From Evansella sp. LMS18 (lineage in GTDB: Bacteria; Bacillota; Bacilli; Bacillales; Salisediminibacteriaceae): a DNA stretch of 64,000 nt. The position numbers and the translations under genes were made by a program. The number at the start of each line of letters is the position of its first letter. Position 1 is the stretch's first letter. Shown here piece after piece: positions 5,633 through 62,449 of the stretch. Under the pieces are notes generated by a model. That model was given only the letters and a program-made list of their open reading frames with translations, searched no databases and was not told where the DNA came from. Location of the stretch: assembly GCF_024362785.1 (NCBI RefSeq), contig NZ_CP093301.1, positions 2,852,001-2,916,000 of the forward strand. The letters are read 5' to 3'.

Positions 5633-5663
5633 AAATCAGTATTTAATTGATGTTGGTGAGTGT

Positions 5664-5861
5664 AATCGGCGAAATAGGTGGTTGAATCGGCGAAAATGAC
5701 AGTTCAATCGGCGAAATCAGGAATCCAATCAGCGAAGTTCGATTCATTATGGGGAATCGGAGGGCCAATCAACGAAAAACAGAGTTCAATCAACGAAATC
5801 GATGGTTCAATCAACGAATAAAGGTGTTTAATCAACGAAATCGATGGTTCAATCAACGAAA
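5664..5861. repeat. 21-bp-period intergenic array, core AATCGGCGAAA / AATCAACGAAA
   Basis: Nine recognisable copies of an 11-bp core begin at 5664, 5685, 5706, 5727, 5767, 5788, 5809, 5830 and 5851. The step is exactly 21 bp except for one degenerate unit between 5727 and 5767. The first copies read AATCGGCGAAA and the later ones AATCAACGAAA, so the array has two sequence blocks. It fills the gap between two convergent genes. The open frames through it are a by-product of the multiple-of-three period. Related arrays lie at 32769 and 43445. Confidence 0.85.
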
Positions 5862-5929
5862 AGGAGATCATCCCCAAAAAAAGAGGATGCATCAACTTTG
5901 ATGCACCCTCTTACCTTAATTCTTTTTAG

Positions 5930-20526: not shown

Positions 20527-20603
20527 ATTATACGAAGTATATTTGCTTAAATGTGAGGGTTCAGATTAAGCACCTATTCCGATCTGAAAAATAGAAGGAG
20601 CGA

Positions 20604-21047
20604 GGGAACGAAAGAGTGCTATTCGTTCCCAGAGGAGGCGGCATCCTTGGAGTGAGGGAACGAATGAGGCCTTTTCGTTCCCAGAGGAGGCGGCATCCTT
20701 GGAGCGAGGGAACGAAAGAGTGCTATTCGTTCCCAGAGGAGGCGGCATCCTTGGAGCGAGGGAACGAAAGAGTGCTATTCGTTCCCAGAGGAGGCGGCAT
20801 CCCTGGAGCGAGGGAACGAATGAGGCCTTTTCATTCCCAGAGGAGGCGGCATCCTTGGAGCGAGGGAACGAAAGAGTGCTATTCGTTCCTAGAGGAGGCG
20901 GCATCCTTGGAGCGAGGGAACGAAAGAGTGCTATTCGTTCCCAGAGGAGGCGGCATCCTTGGAGCGAGGGAACGAAAGAGTGCTATTCGTTCCCAGAGGG
21001 GTCGGCATCCTTGGAGCGAGGGAACGAATGAGACCTTTTCGTTCCCC
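20604..21047. repeat. 52-bp tandem hairpin array A, nine units
   Basis: Units start at 20604, 20656, 20708, 20760, 20812, 20864, 20916, 20968 and 21020, with an exact 52-bp step. Each unit has arms GGGAACGA and TCGTTCCC around an 11-base loop, then a 25-base purine-rich linker (AGAGGAGGCGGCATCCTTGG and on). Two loop types occur: AAGAGTGCTAT in six units and ATGAGGCCTTT-like in three, in the order A-B-A-A-B-A-A-A-B. 52 is not a multiple of three and both strands are open, so this is not coding. A second array with the same period lies at 58933. Confidence 0.9.
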
Positions 21048-32712: not shown

Positions 32713-32768
32713 TTTGGGAGTCAAATATGCTTGTAAGCAGGGGCTTGGAATTAAAAAGAGAGTTCTTA

Positions 32769-33004
32769 TTCTCGAAACCAGCCAGTCAATTCTCGAAAAA
32801 GCAGGTTTCATTCTCGAAATCGAGCCTCCAATTCTCGAAGTGAGTTTTAGTTCTCGAAACCAGCCAGTCAATTCTCGAAAAAGCAGGTTTCATTCTCGAA
32901 ATCAAGCATCTGATTCTCGAAGTGAGTTTCAGTTCTCGAAACCAGCCAGTCAATTCTCGAAAAAGCAGGTTTCATTCTCAAAATCGAGCATCCAATTCTC
33001 GAAA
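32769..33004. repeat. 21-bp-period intergenic array, core ATTCTCGAAA
   Basis: Twelve cores begin at 32769, 32790, 32811, 32832, 32851, 32872, 32893, 32914, 32933, 32954, 32975 and 32996. Steps are 21, 21, 21, 19 and repeat, so an 82-bp higher-order unit with four cores occurs three times. The array lies after the panF terminator. The rest of the gap to 33310 is AT-rich and probably holds the promoter of the next gene. Confidence 0.88.
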
Positions 33005-33310
33005 GTCCATTCCTATTTACTAAGAATTCCAGTCAATTTACAAAACGACAACATTATAACTCAGAAAAATAATTTTCGACAATTTTCACCAAAAGTAATC
33101 TGCTAGCCTGTTAGTTACCAGTGCAAACCCCTTGTCATAGCAATAAAAAACATGAAGAAAAAAAGAAAATGTCCTTTTAGGAAAATAAATACGAAATATG
33201 TGAAAATTTTCTTGAGTTAACATTATTTATTAATTGTTTACTATTGTATATTATTAGGTAAAGGTACTTTTGTCCTAGGATGATTATCGAGAGAGGGGCA
33301 GGCACTTTTC

Positions 33311-43414: not shown

Positions 43415-43444
43415 ACACAGTATTTTTCAGGTGAATGTCATTTT

Positions 43445-43545
43445 TATTGGCTAAATTTTTATTTTATTGGCGATATTCATTAACTTATTGGCGAAAAACT
43501 GATTTTATTGGCGAAATCCAGAATTTATCGGCGACTCGCCAATAA
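43445..43545. repeat. 20/21-bp-period intergenic array, core TATTGGCGAAA
   Basis: Cores begin at 43445, 43465, 43486, 43506 and 43526, with steps of 20, 21, 20 and 20. The last unit is followed by an inverted copy (TCGCCAATAAA), giving a small hairpin. It lies between convergent genes, like the array at 5664, and has the same CGAAA ending. Confidence 0.8.
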
Positions 43546-57490: not shown

Positions 57491-58885
57491 ATGAGTAATA
57501 ATCAGCATGATTTTACAGAGGGAAGCATAACCAAAAAGATGGTTTTCTTTTCGGCGCCGATTTTCCTTACGAATCTGCTGCAGACATCTTATCAGCTGAT
57601 TGATTCTTTATGGGTGGGGAACCTTTTGGGAGCCAATGCCCTTGGAGCGATCGCCGTTTCAGGAACAGTGGTTTTTACCATTCTCTCATTTATTATCGGG
57701 ATTAACACCGCTGCGCTCACAATACTTTCCCAGCATAAGGGCGCTAAGGACGAAGAGGGACTGAAGAAATCACTGAACGCTTTTGTGGTTATTCTGGGAA
57801 TAATGACTGTGGTTCTCGGTCTTTTTGGTTTCCTCATGTCAGAATCAATTTTGCAGTGGATGGGAACACCTGATGAGATTCTTCCCCTGGCAACCACATA
57901 TCTGCAAATAAATTTTATCGGAATCATCTTTTTATTCGGCTATAATTTCATTGCTACTGTTTTGAGAGCACTGGGCGACAGTAAAACTCCTGTCCGTTTT
58001 GTGCTCCTGGCGGTTATTTTGAACGCGATATTTGACCCGGTCTTTATTGTGGTGTTCGATATGGGGATTGCGGGTGCTGCATACGCGACAATCGTCTCTC
58101 AGGGAACAGCGTTTGTATATGGACTTCTCTATTCCATTTATAAAGCGAATGTCCCTTTCTCCATGCCAAAATGGCCTGATGCCATTTTTATGAAAGTGAT
58201 CTTTCGCCTTGGACTCCCGTCTGGTTTGAGTATGATGGTGATTTCCGGTGGAGTGCTCGCCATTATGACAGTGGTCACTTCCTTTGGTGAAGAGGTTACT
58301 GCAGGTTTCGGAGCTGCCCAGCGGCTGGACAGTCTGATTATGATACCAGCGATGACCCTGGGTTCGGCAGTTAACAGTATCGCAGGCCAGAACATCGGGG
58401 CAAATTTATGGGGAAGAGTTAATGAAGTGGCGAAAAATGGAGTAATACTGATTTTACTTGTCTCTTTTTCCATTGGTGCAGCTATCTTTTTCAGTGCCGA
58501 ATTCCTCATCTCTTTATTCGTTCAGGACGAGGAGACGATTGCCTTTGGAAAAACTTATGTACAGACCATTGCATTCTTCTACCCGTTTCTCGGCATCAAT
58601 TTTGTTTTAAATGGAGTAGTGCGTGCCGCAGGGGCTATGATGCAAATTTTCGTACTGAATACAATTTCCTTCTGGATCCTCCGCTACCCTCTTACATATC
58701 TGTTCTCCAGCTGGATGGGGGAAGAGGGGATTGCGGTTGGGATGGCCGCCAGCTTTGTTATCAGCAGTCTCTTTGCGATCGGCTATTTCAAATATGGTAA
58801 ATGGCGGGAAATCAAACTCCTTGACGAGAAGGACGATGAAAAAGAGAAGTTGCTTGAGGAACTCGAGGAAAAAACGAAGAAATAA
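57491..58885 (+). CDS. MATE family efflux transporter
   Basis: A 464-residue MATE antiporter with 12 predicted membrane helices. The start SITKKMVFFSAPIFLTNLLQ and QLIDSLWVGNLLGANALGAI are family-typical; the second half repeats QRLDSLIMIPAMTLGSAVNS. It would export drugs or metabolites using Na+ or H+. The C-terminal tail is very charged (KDDEKEKLLEELEEKTKK). Its stop lies at the edge of the repeat array. Confidence 0.93.
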   Translation: MSNNQHDFTEGSITKKMVFFSAPIFLTNLLQTSYQLIDSLWVGNLLGANALGAIAVSGTVVFTILSFIIGINTAALTILSQHKGAKDEEGLKKSLNAFVVILGIMTVVLGLFGFLMSESILQWMGTPDEILPLATTYLQINFIGIIFLFGYNFIATVLRALGDSKTPVRFVLLAVILNAIFDPVFIVVFDMGIAGAAYATIVSQGTAFVYGLLYSIYKANVPFSMPKWPDAIFMKVIFRLGLPSGLSMMVISGGVLAIMTVVTSFGEEVTAGFGAAQRLDSLIMIPAMTLGSAVNSIAGQNIGANLWGRVNEVAKNGVILILLVSFSIGAAIFFSAEFLISLFVQDEETIAFGKTYVQTIAFFYPFLGINFVLNGVVRAAGAMMQIFVLNTISFWILRYPLTYLFSSWMGEEGIAVGMAASFVISSLFAIGYFKYGKWREIKLLDEKDDEKEKLLEELEEKTKK

Positions 58886-59419
58886 GGGTGGCCAGAAGGT
58901 CCTTCGGTACATGAGAAGGAGGTACTATTACTCTCAAGTGGTGCAAGAATGTCTTGCATCCCTTGAAAGAGAGGAAAAGGTGAACTCAAGTGATGCAAGA
59001 ATGTCTTGCATCACTTGAAAGAGAGGAAAAGGTGAACTCAAGTGATGCAAGAACGTCTTGCATCCCTTCAAAGAGAGGAAATGATGCACTCAAGTGTTGC
59101 AAGGGCGTCTTGCATCCCTTGAAAGAGAGGAAAAGGTGAACTCAAGTGATGCAAGAACGTCTTGCATCCCTTGAAAGAGAGGAAAAGGTGAACTCAAGTG
59201 ATGCAAGAACGTCTTGCATCCCTTCAAAGAGAGGAAATGATGAACTCAAGTGATGCAAGAACGTCTTGCATCCCTTCAAAGAGAGGAAATGATGAACTCA
59301 AGTGATGCAAGAACGTCTTGCATCCCTTGAGAGAGAGGAAAAGGTGAACTCAAGTGATGCAAGAAGGTCTTGCGTTACTTGAGAAGGAGAAACCCGTGCT
59401 CTCAAGTGGTGCAAGAGCG
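58881..59419. repeat. 52-bp tandem hairpin array B, left part
   Basis: Units begin at 58933, 58985, 59037, 59089, 59141, 59193, 59245, 59297, 59349 and 59401 with an exact 52-bp step; a degenerate unit precedes at about 58881. Each unit folds as CTCAAG-tg-ATGCAAGA with TCTTGCAT-cc-CTTGAG (or CTTGAA), then a purine-rich linker AGAGAGGAAAAGGTGAA. The last unit is cut by the insertion sequence. Confidence 0.9.
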
Positions 59420-60798
59420 TCAAGTCCATCTTTGTGTGTAAAAGTAGATACAATATTTTTCAGCTTCAAACAATGTATAGAGAGTTCTTTTTCACCAGGG
59501 AGGGGCGAGCCCCTCCCTGGTGAAATTAATTTTGCTTAAGGAAAGGCTTTTTTTGGTTCGTCCATTTCTCGTCGATGTCCATTAGAACAGACCCGATTAG
59601 TCGGATGGCCGATTGGTCATTTGGAAAGATTTGAATGACTTTTTCTCTTCTTCGAACCTCACGGTTTAAGCGTTCAAGCATATTGGTAGTGCGCAAACTG
59701 ATATGGTGCTCACTTGGATAAGCGTGAAATTGAATGGCATCCTCGAATCCTTCATCTAATATCTGAACTGCTTTTGTAAATCCTTTTACTGTTTCGTACT
59801 TTTGCACAAACTTTTCTTTGAGATCCCGGGCAAGGGCCACTTCAGGCACTCTAAAAATGGCTTTAAGTTCATGTTTGGCTTCTTCGCTGCCTTTCTTGGG
59901 CATGGCATCAACGATATTTCTGGAAAAGTGAAAATAACAGCGCTGCCAGGACGTGCCCAGAAATGTTTCCTGAATGGAGGCGACTAGCCCCTTGTGGGCA
60001 TCGGAGATCACCATTTTAGGAGACTGAATGCCTCTTCCCTTAAGATCCTCAAAGAAAGCAGTCCAGCTGCGTACAGATTCGCCATGAGTAACTTTAAGCC
60101 CTATGATTTCCCGATGCCCATCCTGAGTAATCCCACAAGCAATATGGACGGCTTTGGAAACTACTTTATTGTTCTCACGAACTTTAATATACATAGCGTC
60201 CACGTATAAGTACGGGTAGTAATGCACGTTAAGTGGGCGGTTTCGCCATTCGTTTACAATGGGATCCAGGGATTTTAACAAGTTAGAGACCTGTGATTTC
60301 GAGACACTCTTCCCGCATAATTCTTCCACAATCTTAGTTACTTTGCGTGTGGAAACGCCATTAACAACCATTTCAATCATAGACAGAACTAATGCCTGGT
60401 CACATCGGTTGTATTTTTCAAAGATGGTCGTGGAAAATTCTCCGTCTCTCGTACGAGGGACCTTAAGGGTGAGACCACCTGCGCCAGTCATGAGTTCACG
60501 GGAATAATACCCGTTACGCTGTCCCGTACGGTCTTCCGAGCGCTCGTAAGGTATGGCATTAATGTATTCATCTCTTTCTTTTTCCATCAATGAATTAAGA
60601 ATAAGGGTCAAAGACGCTTTCACAGGAGAACCTAGTGTACTGTTCTCTACTTCCTCTTTTAGTTGGTCCAAATTTATAGTAATATTGAGTTGGGTCATCA
60701 TCATTACCTCCGTGTGCTATTTTTCTTGGTCGAAAAACATTGTACCACGGGTCTTGATGATGACCTTTTCTTTTTACACAATTATATGGACTTTATCT
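59420..60798 (-). mobile_element. IS256-family insertion sequence
   Basis: A 1379-bp element. Ends are imperfect inverted repeats: CAAGTCCATCTTTGTGTGTA on the left and, on minus, AAAGTCCATATAATTGTGTA on the right. A 9-bp duplication GCAAGAGCG flanks it (59411-59419 and 60799-60807). Both copies fall at the same offset of the 52-bp repeat unit, so insertion postdates the array. Confidence 0.9.
59526..60698 (-). CDS. IS256-family (mutator-type) transposase
   Basis: About 390 residues from ATG 60698, placed 8 bases after GGAGG; two earlier ATGs at 60704 and 60701 are very close to that site. The DDE catalytic region has LYVDAMYIKVRE near residue 165, KMVISDAHKGLVAS near 230 and the downstream C-x2-H-like QRCYFHFSRNIVDAMPKKG block. 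Full length, so the element may still be active. Confidence 0.94.
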   Translation of the reverse strand: MTQLNITINLDQLKEEVENSTLGSPVKASLTLILNSLMEKERDEYINAIPYERSEDRTGQRNGYYSRELMTGAGGLTLKVPRTRDGEFSTTIFEKYNRCDQALVLSMIEMVVNGVSTRKVTKIVEELCGKSVSKSQVSNLLKSLDPIVNEWRNRPLNVHYYPYLYVDAMYIKVRENNKVVSKAVHIACGITQDGHREIIGLKVTHGESVRSWTAFFEDLKGRGIQSPKMVISDAHKGLVASIQETFLGTSWQRCYFHFSRNIVDAMPKKGSEEAKHELKAIFRVPEVALARDLKEKFVQKYETVKGFTKAVQILDEGFEDAIQFHAYPSEHHISLRTTNMLERLNREVRRREKVIQIFPNDQSAIRLIGSVLMDIDEKWTNQKKPFLKQN

Positions 60799-61081
60799 GC
60801 AAGAGCGCCTTGCGTCCCTTGAAAGAGAGGAAATGATGAACTCAAGTGGTGCAAGAGCGCCTTGCATCCCTTGAAAGAGAGGAAAAGGTGAACTCAAGTG
60901 ATGCAAGAACGTCTTGCATCCCTTCAAAGAGAGGAAATGATGAACTCAAGTGATGCAAGAACGTCTTGCGTTACTTGAGCAGGAGGTACTGTCACTCTCA
61001 AGTGGTGCAAGAATGCCTTGCGTTACTTGAGAAGGGGAAAACCCCACACTCAGGGAGTGCAAGAAGCACTCGCACAACTTT
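60799..61081. repeat. 52-bp tandem hairpin array B, right part
   Basis: The array resumes in phase: the cut unit (virtual start 60789), then 60841, 60893, 60945 and 60997, and a degenerate unit at 61049. Some units read CTTGCGTTACTTGAG instead of CTTGCATCCCTTGA. Confidence 0.88.
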
Positions 61082-61083
61082 AA

Positions 61084-61123
61084 AAAAGTGTCCCAGGTTT
61101 AAGTACCCGGGACACTTTTTTTT
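61084..61123. terminator. bidirectional terminator of the TRAP operon
   Basis: AAGTGTCCCAGG ... CCGGGACACTT with T residues on both strands. Confidence 0.88.
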
Positions 61124-61141
61124 ATCCCATACGCCACACAC

Positions 61142-62449
61142 CTAATTCCTCATAAGATCAGGAAGGAATGTGACAATCTGAGGGAACGCTATCAAAATTG
61201 CAGTACAGACAATCATTGCGATAACCATTGGTGTTACGCCTCGGAATATGGTCTGTATTGGCACGTCCTTCGCTACCCCTTTAATAACAAAGATACTGAC
61301 ACCTAGAGGAGGCGTTAATAAGCCGATGTTGACGACCATAACCATGATAACACCGAACCATACTCCGTCAAATCCCAGAGATGTAACGATAGGATGGAGA
61401 ATGGATAAAGTTAAAACAAATATGGACAGACCCTCGATAAAGAGCCCTAAAATGAACAGGACAACCAGAATCAGAAACAAAATGATATAAGGGCTGACAT
61501 CCAGGCCGCTCACATAATTTGTAACTTCCACAGGTATTCGGCTGATTGTCAGGAACTGACTGAAAAGGTTAGCACCAATTAAAATGAGAAAGATCATTGC
61601 TGTCAGGCGGACAGTATCGTCGAGAGAGTCACGCAGATTTTTAAACGTAAGCCGCCTTGTCACGAAAGCAAAAAGAAATGCACCGAATGCGCCTACACCA
61701 GCCGCCTCGGTAGGAGTAAAGATACCAGCGTAAATTCCGCCGACACTGATAATGAACAAAGCCAGAATCGGCCAGACGGGCTTTAAGCTTGTGAACCTTT
61801 TCGTCATTGTCGCTTTTTCAGCCCGGGCAGGAGCCAGGTCAGGGTTTCGGCGGATAAGAATAGCAATAGTAATAACGAATAAAATAATCTGCAGAATACC
61901 AGGGATTATTCCTGCAATGAGCAGTGCACCGATATTTTCGCCAGTTAATATTCCGTAAAGTATTAAAATGACACTTGGGGGGATGAGGATTCCCAAAGTA
62001 CCGCCTGCTGCCACACAGGCTGTTGACAAGGTTGGCTTGTAATTGTATTTTTCCATTTCCGGCAATGTTATTTTCGCCACAGTCGCAGTTGTGGCATTAA
62101 CGGAACCGGAAATCGCTGAAAAAATAGCGGCTGTACCTATGGTGGCCATTGCAAGTCCCCCACGGACATGGCCAATCCAGTTATCCACCGCCTTATACAG
62201 GTCTCTGCCAAGTCCGCAATATGACAGGACCATCCCCATTAAAATAAATAAGGGAATAACACTGAGAGAATAAGAGAACGCTGTATCAAAGGGGGTTCTC
62301 CCAAGCTGGAGAAGTGCGATATCCCAGCCTCTTATTAACCCTGTTCCGACTAAACCGACGACAAGCAAAGCGATACCAACAGGGATTTTCAGCAGAAATA
62401 AAATGAGCAAAAGGATCAGGCCCAGGACTCCGATTAATTCAGGACTCAT
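61142..62449 (-). CDS. TRAP transporter large permease (DctM)
   Basis: A 435-residue DctM-type protein with about 12 membrane segments, the transport-active subunit of a TRAP carrier that takes up organic acids with Na+. Typical regions are GAIFSAISGSVNATTATVAKITLPEM near 108 (in parts), GGTLGILIPPSVILILYG near 150 and LLTPPLGVSIFVIKG near 385. It overlaps the small permease gene by 11 bp. Confidence 0.93.
   Translation of the reverse strand: MSPELIGVLGLILLLILFLLKIPVGIALLVVGLVGTGLIRGWDIALLQLGRTPFDTAFSYSLSVIPLFILMGMVLSYCGLGRDLYKAVDNWIGHVRGGLAMATIGTAAIFSAISGSVNATTATVAKITLPEMEKYNYKPTLSTACVAAGGTLGILIPPSVILILYGILTGENIGALLIAGIIPGILQIILFVITIAILIRRNPDLAPARAEKATMTKRFTSLKPVWPILALFIISVGGIYAGIFTPTEAAGVGAFGAFLFAFVTRRLTFKNLRDSLDDTVRLTAMIFLILIGANLFSQFLTISRIPVEVTNYVSGLDVSPYIILFLILVVLFILGLFIEGLSIFVLTLSILHPIVTSLGFDGVWFGVIMVMVVNIGLLTPPLGVSIFVIKGVAKDVPIQTIFRGVTPMVIAMIVCTAILIAFPQIVTFLPDLMRN

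Follow-up and report, generated by a model that had tools for sequence, protein, structure and literature searches.

Repeat families are normally recognised by their sequence, and in ordinary variable-number tandem repeats (VNTRs, or minisatellites) each locus has a period of its own, unrelated to those of other loci. The closest described systems are the repetitive extragenic palindromic (REP) elements and bacterial interspersed mosaic elements (BIMEs) of enterobacteria and Pseudomonas, which are extragenic palindromic repeats that occur in clusters and are targeted by insertion sequences (ISs). In Pseudomonas fluorescens SBW25, paired inverted repeats (REP doublets forming hairpins, REPINs) and tandem REP arrays differ in orientation between the chromosome arms, and a REP-associated tyrosine transposase (RAYT) gene lies beside each sequence class (PMC3116915). 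Insertion into REP elements is also known for ISs that include the IS256-family element ISRm5, with 5/7 copies (PMC1525189). Here we examine array B, a tandem array of 52-bp units in the genome of Evansella sp. LMS18 (G000; 4,903,744 bp, single contig). The window, that is, the whole 64,000-nucleotide stretch that was analysed, is G000:C1:2852001-2916000, and it holds a second array of the same period, array A. Arrays of this kind are general in the Evansella genomes sampled, and in several species units of unrelated sequence almost always agree in length to one base. This suggests that the cell conserves the spacing of the units and not their letters. A literature search, which covered few subscription journals, found no description of such arrays.

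The arrays in the window have the following parts.
58886..58932, plus strand: degenerate first unit of array B, directly after the stop codon of a MATE-family transporter gene (register with the downstream units and the orthologous array of Evansella clarkii)
58933..59417, plus strand: left part of array B, tandem 52-bp units of a hairpin and a purine-rich linker (Tandem Repeats Finder, TRF; fold against shuffles; register)
60798..61065, plus strand: right part of array B, B-type units and then units of an older type at the end (TRF; comparison with the E. clarkii ortholog)
20597..21046, plus strand: array A, 8.7 copies by TRF of 52-bp units unrelated to those of array B, with the hairpin GGGAACGAA-N9-TTCGTTCCC

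TRF called the left part of array B with period 52 at 58933-59421 (9.4 copies, 90% matches, 0% indels) and the right part as two overlapping rows of the same period, 60798-61021 (4.3 copies) and 60944-61065 (2.3 copies). The two parts are a single period-52 array that is split by a 1,380-bp IS256-type element, and in register it comprises about 14 units plus degenerate end units, the consensus of which folds better than 100/100 shuffles on both strands. The hairpin units with a 52-bp step that an earlier, sequence-only reading of this DNA had described are thus borne out, and the span assigned to them there, 58881-61081, also holds the IS at 59418-60797, which went unmentioned. At the orthologous place in E. 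clarkii there is a 52-bp array of the older unit type, which in the window is kept at the ends of array B with B-type units occupying the middle (both by eye), so units have been exchanged while the 52-bp register stayed.

The constancy of length extends well beyond the window. Stretches of six Evansella genomes (G000, G001, G003, G006, G008 and G004, which is E. clarkii DSM 8720) yielded 81 TRF arrays with a period of 45-60 bp, of which 63 had a period of 52 bp, 16 of 51 bp and two of 48 bp. Coding repeats were rejected as an explanation, since 52 is not a multiple of 3 and only the two 48-bp arrays look coding from their consensus (multiples of 24 and of 3). Loci picked by similarity to array B are biased towards 52 bp, a bias from which the systematic 20-kb stretches (37 in G000, 20 in G003 and 5 each in G001, G006 and G008) are free; the 20 stretches of 20 kb from E. 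clarkii were partly placed on hits. G001, G003, G006 and G008 gave 17 arrays, 14 of them from systematic stretches, not chosen by array B and all of period 52, and the remaining three, of period 51, were fetched around IS homologs. A motif-free count of the steps between units, for which lags of 44-59 bp were searched and at least 21/26 matching bases required, found one step of 50 bp, 111 of 51 bp, 408 of 52 bp and three of 53 bp, so that only 4/523 fell outside 51-52 bp. Units of both lengths are mixed in ten TRF arrays at nine loci, and one locus has period 52 in G000 and 51 in E. clarkii; one-base indels therefore do occur. When gaps of 10-40 bp were allowed between A-type arms, the gap was 24 or 25 bp in every one among the matches listed. 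Among the matches listed for the CTTGC...GCAAGA pattern, lengths peaked at 48 bp, and the other, scattered lengths were roughly as frequent as the 11 and 19 of the control.

The proposal in the sequence-only reading that a shared period without a shared sequence reflects a common constraint is upheld by this window of 51-52 bp across unrelated units in six genomes. It had also held that a broad range of periods elsewhere would make the shared 52 bp a coincidence; no such range was seen within 45-60 bp, but other classes of array in the genus do have other periods. Arrays of 45-60 bp are likely absent outside the genus: five other genera of the family, represented by seven genomes and sampled in 18 stretches of 20 kb (360 kb), yielded none. 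The systematic genus stretches, with 16 loci of 3.5 or more copies in 1.44 Mb, would lead one to expect about four. The 51- and 52-bp arrays located amount to about 20 kb, or about 0.4% of G000, and perhaps to 0.6% in all by our estimate. Searches based on sequence would miss such elements, while searches based on period find them.

Between many of the units no similarity can be detected. The best circular ungapped identity between arrays A and B was 0.44, which was equalled by 20% of 60 shuffles and so lies at shuffle level, in agreement with the earlier description of their stems. Among 19 representative units (171 pairs, where a few nominal hits are expected by chance), most between-species pairs were also at shuffle level, and the related groups consisted of array A with two other GGGAACGAA arrays, array B with a 51-bp CAAG array, and three arrays of G003. 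The linker word AGAGGA is common to A and B, as had been noticed, but a reading of the consensuses shows that it is not general in other unit families; AGAGGA-N46-AGAGGA occurs 88 times in G000 against 3 for the reversed-pattern control, mostly in B-type units. A search of G000 with the B unit gave 179 matches and placed B-type units at many loci, and a pattern scan showed the same repeat units in E. clarkii DSM 8720. Two unrelated arm families can even be joined within one array: at G000:C1 2183200-2183750 (L233; 2183447), the end of a CAAG-type array bears a unit of type A that keeps to the 52-bp register. The identity of units to their consensus was mostly 0.80-0.97 (0.70-0.73 in two mixed arrays), and whole units are alike, linker included, which differs from the plan of clustered regularly interspaced short palindromic repeats (CRISPR) with its unique spacers.

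The period is more constant than the strong hairpin, because only 51/79 arrays fold strongly, with a hairpin energy matched by at most 5/100 shuffles on at least one strand. These strong folders made up 34/45 arrays in G000, 6/17 in G004, 6/7 in G001, 2/7 in G003 and 3/3 in G006/G008, and stem and linker lengths vary among units. The arms pair at a defined register in the CAAG type, where 46 array consensuses from G000 and G004 gave a mean pairing of 0.73 over offsets 3-17 compared to 0.16-0.24 after a shift of 1-3 bp. At offsets 13-16 two alternative Watson-Crick pairs are seen, and the outer stem of this family group has changed in a paired manner, possibly in one block event; the inner pairs are almost unchanged, in part because they belong to the motif by which units were selected.

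The IS that splits array B has the following parts.
59418..60797, minus strand: IS256-type insertion sequence of 1,380 bp (target duplication and transposase)
59410..59417, plus strand: left copy of the 8-bp target duplication (sequence reading)
60798..60805, plus strand: right copy of the 8-bp target duplication (sequence reading)
59526..60704, minus strand: 392-aa transposase (Transposase_mut, PF00872, E 1.1e-135), the domain from which we take the element to belong to the IS256 family

This IS targets the arrays. G000 carries six copies with 100% identical transposases, 6/6 of them inside 51- or 52-bp arrays, and the 8-bp duplications match at 5/6. Five of the six insertions lie no more than 1 bp from the point halfway between two hairpin axes (offsets 0, 0, 0.5, 0.5 and 1). 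They are spread over two arm families that are unrelated, GGGAACGAA and CAAG, and occupy five different octamers; explicit hairpin axes were used here instead of a crude dyad scan, which gave mixed centres. Preferential insertion into repeats is common to this IS and those that target REP elements, but the class targeted here has no common sequence. A homolog in G001 (75% identical) sits inside a 51-bp array of another sequence; the association is weak for a homolog in G003 (58%), which has only 2.2 weak repeats nearby, and at a homolog in G005 (72%) TRF found no array. Two further, apparently frame-shifted copies occur in G003, one of them beside 21-bp arrays. No IS copy was found in the multi-contig assemblies of G004, G006 and G008, all of which have arrays, and the IS is therefore probably not the creator of the arrays.

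Array B is flanked by the following features.
57491..58885, plus strand: MATE-family transporter gene, upstream of array B (protein domain search)
61084..61123, plus strand: intrinsic-terminator-like hairpin with a T-run, closing array B (sequence reading)
61142..62449, minus strand: gene for a TRAP transporter DctM subunit, convergent, downstream of array B (protein domain search)

Read on the minus strand, the hairpin at 61084..61123 could also serve the convergent DctM gene, and it is the minus-strand side that scored as terminator-like. The arrays in general sit 3' of genes and avoid divergent gaps. With open reading frames (ORFs) called by length alone, the 58 arrays of at least 4 copies were found in 24 convergent, 32 co-directional and 2 divergent gaps, against a background of 144, 543 and 152 of 839 gaps, which is a convergent excess (odds ratio 3.4, p 3e-5) and a divergent deficit (odds ratio 0.16, p 0.002). 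The earlier suggestion that arrays all lie 3' of genes is thus nearly right, the exceptions being the 2/58 between divergent ORFs. A terminator-like hairpin lies between gene and array at 38/68 array-facing gene ends (249/603 control gene ends), and transcripts therefore probably end before many of the arrays. At 49/53 loci, compared to 297/391 control gaps (Fisher p 0.005), the purines are concentrated on the leading strand, with replichore bounds set by hand from GC skew; of the four loci that deviate, two are in G000 close to the presumed terminus and two, both near-neutral, are in G004. In G000:C1 the GC skew reverses at about 1.9 Mb and at about 4.55 Mb, which presumably mark the origin and terminus.

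The explanation that we favour, tentatively and at somewhat less than an even chance, is that array B is one of many intergenic inverted-repeat satellites, found throughout the genus, that are selected for a spacing of about five helical turns. A unit of 51 or 52 bp consists of two inverted arms and a linker, and head-to-tail chaining produces equally spaced hairpins or dyads, each of which the five-turn spacing would place on the same face of the DNA. A structure-reading architectural factor, perhaps a nucleoid protein, gyrase or topoisomerase IV, or condensin, could bind the whole chain and serve a topological role beyond gene ends, where transcription piles up supercoils. The sequence would be free to drift, while slippage and conversion, always by whole units, would homogenise it inside an array and from one array to another, and the IS256-type transposase may read the same symmetry when it inserts at the midpoint between hairpins. 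Units of 50 and 53 bp are nearly absent even though 51- and 52-bp units mix, which argues for purging by selection and favours DNA geometry. Periods of 51 and 52 bp, and the 82 bp of another class described below, are compatible with whole turns of 10.2-10.4 bp. A bolder version, possible but in our view doubtful, is that these are sequence-independent, length-coded elements, in which host and transposon machinery alike read the spacing and symmetry of dyad chains at exactly five turns and the 82-bp pattern of 21-21-21-19 is another word in a spacing code. If the spacing is indeed read, the arrays would give a direct handle on DNA geometry in vivo and on the role of REP-like repeats at gene ends.

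Several observations weigh against selection for spacing. If exact phasing matters, arrays of 51 bp should carry extra twist to stay in step with those of 52 bp; the predicted twist, taken from three twist tables, shifts in the right direction but by far too little, leaving the totals 27-30 degrees apart, and the shift is accompanied by lower GC. The five helical turns proposed in the sequence-only reading agree with the unit lengths, but the twist test gave only a small compensation, and the DNA-binding protein suggested there was not found. The other classes (86, 91, 101 and 185 bp) fit whole turns only loosely, and a strong hairpin is not universal, least of all in G003. No tandem repeat was present within 1.5 kb of five orthologous MATE loci (75-79% protein identity), which shows that arrays are gained and lost. 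The purine bias of the leading strand is largely background, as seen in the control gaps. With regard to the transposase, the IS copy in the window is itself the exception to the midpoint rule, 4.5 bp from a hairpin axis, and the G001 insertion appears by eye to be inside a hairpin.

The main rival, unlikely in our judgement and still of real weight, is a REP/REPIN-like mobile element, in which a Y1/RAYT-type enzyme would use single-stranded hairpins as its substrate and copy units of one given size, the length thus being set by the copying machine and not by the phasing of the DNA. The 51/52-bp arrays are extragenic, palindromic and clustered, as are REP elements and BIMEs. Inverted repeats make up the units, B-type units are found at many loci, and one site with about one unit (arm-linker-arm) in G000 has a 9.8-unit array in E. 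clarkii. Orientation tends to follow replication, as has been reported for the tandem REP arrays of SBW25 (PMC3116915). Two loci in the genus also link palindromic arrays to RAYT-like genes.
L219 2087-3417 (G000:C1 about 628.6-629.9 kb): RAYT-like Y1 gene and a 101-bp palindromic array that starts 71 bp after it
L222 2345-4651 (G003:C1 about 4383.3-4385.7 kb): RAYT-like Y1 gene and a 91-bp palindromic array that starts 213 bp after it

These two arrays have a plan similar to that of the 51/52-bp arrays and likewise differ in sequence between the two species, but they stand next to a Y1 gene, their units hold two palindromes and a long pyrimidine-rich linker, and their period is not constant (91 against 101 bp). 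In contrast, a 51/52-bp array adjoined 0/11 RAYT-like loci (4 in G000, 3 in G003 and 4 in G001, three of nine genus genomes, mostly examined over 2-3 kb on each side), the nearest being about 3.5 kb away, and mobilisation of the 52-bp class by a RAYT was dropped on this ground; nor is any RAYT type common to G000, G001 and G003 by eye. Solitary units are also wanting, since 5/5 apparently isolated pattern matches sat in period-52 arrays once they were fetched, and apart from the one G000 site isolated units are not established. A copying ruler would, moreover, leave the missing 50- and 53-bp units and the free mixing of 51 and 52 bp unexplained. Unlike REP elements and BIMEs, the arrays here have no common palindrome sequence, several unrelated units in one genome and a fixed unit length, and in contrast to SBW25, with a RAYT beside each sequence class, it is the sequence that varies and the length that is constant (PMC3116915). 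From reading alone, CGTC of the GTAG/CGTC tag is seen in many B-type loops, but no common tag was seen in the C-, A-, 51-bp or other-species units. The class is best called a length-locked inverted-repeat satellite, which resembles REP/BIME elements and is not a member of that family by test.

Common descent without constraint, which we consider improbable, would derive all units from one ancestral 52-bp array in which the sequence drifted and the length was inherited because tandem homogenisation resists indels. Several families within one genome do share a core (GCAAG/CTTGC), and the flanks of most sampled E. clarkii arrays match array loci of G000. However, one-base indels do spread, so by the time similarity was lost the lengths should have wandered, and they have not, a rough argument that uses assumed indel rates.

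A function in RNA, whereby chains of hairpins in 3' untranslated regions would make the mRNA more stable or recruit an RNA-binding protein by way of the GAGGA linkers, is very improbable. It would fit the location 3' of genes and array B in particular, where the scoring gave no terminator ahead of the array, after the MATE stop codon, and a terminator-like hairpin follows it; the purine strand also has slightly more G-T than A-C mismatches by copies (528 against 460; 29 against 18 arrays, with 7 ties). At the level of array consensuses the two kinds of mismatch are about equally common, and wobble thus does not single out one strand as RNA; the terminator-like hairpins ahead of arrays also speak against it. 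Known structured RNA families were rejected, as the window and five array loci gave no Rfam match at the gathering threshold inside arrays and three outside them. RNA targets of the CsrA/TRAP type were considered, from their motifs alone, and dropped. RNA alone would not fix a total of 51-52 bp while stem and linker lengths vary.

Equally improbable are neutral slippage satellites without function that are parasitised by an IS: copy number varies (8.7 units against <2 at orthologous loci) and arrays appear and vanish, but without a constraint of some kind neither the sharp limits on length nor the bias in position would be accounted for. With VNTRs the arrays share their tandem arrangement, homogenisation and variable copy number. 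A phage or plasmid origin was dropped because the left part of array B had no match in phage and plasmid collections and the B-type pattern none in viral contigs.

Tandem arrays of other periods in the genus fall into classes of about 20-21/82 bp, 86-101 bp and 184-186 bp, with a few repeats of 203-258 bp in 2-3 copies, among them 203, 234 and 248 bp. The 20-21/82 bp class mostly has a CGAAA/TTTCG core with array-specific words, and several of its arrays, although their words differ, repeat a 21-21-21-19 pattern that adds up to 82 bp, or eight turns at 10.25 bp each; there is a variant of 21-21-19 (61 bp), and other arrays are plain 21 or 20 bp. The following loci were recorded.
Window 32750-33010: array of the 21-21-21-19 class
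L092 3823-4018 and 5229-5680, L094 18141, L097 18318: arrays of the same class
L078 7297, L131 14834, L138 16194, L053 5545: further arrays of the same class
Window 5640-5870 and 43440-43540: short arrays of the 20-21 bp class
L066 19006-19658, L099 6928-7412, L101 16472-16902, L110 15726-16192, L146 17129-18176: tandem arrays of 184-186 bp, alternating TTTGTCCAG and CTGGACAAA

A Y1-transposase-like gene lies directly upstream of a gene that, by eye, appears to encode a single-stranded-DNA-binding protein in two species (L066 3645-4367 and L223 2447-3208). Two of the 184-186 bp arrays, L110 and L146, contain 51-bp sub-steps.

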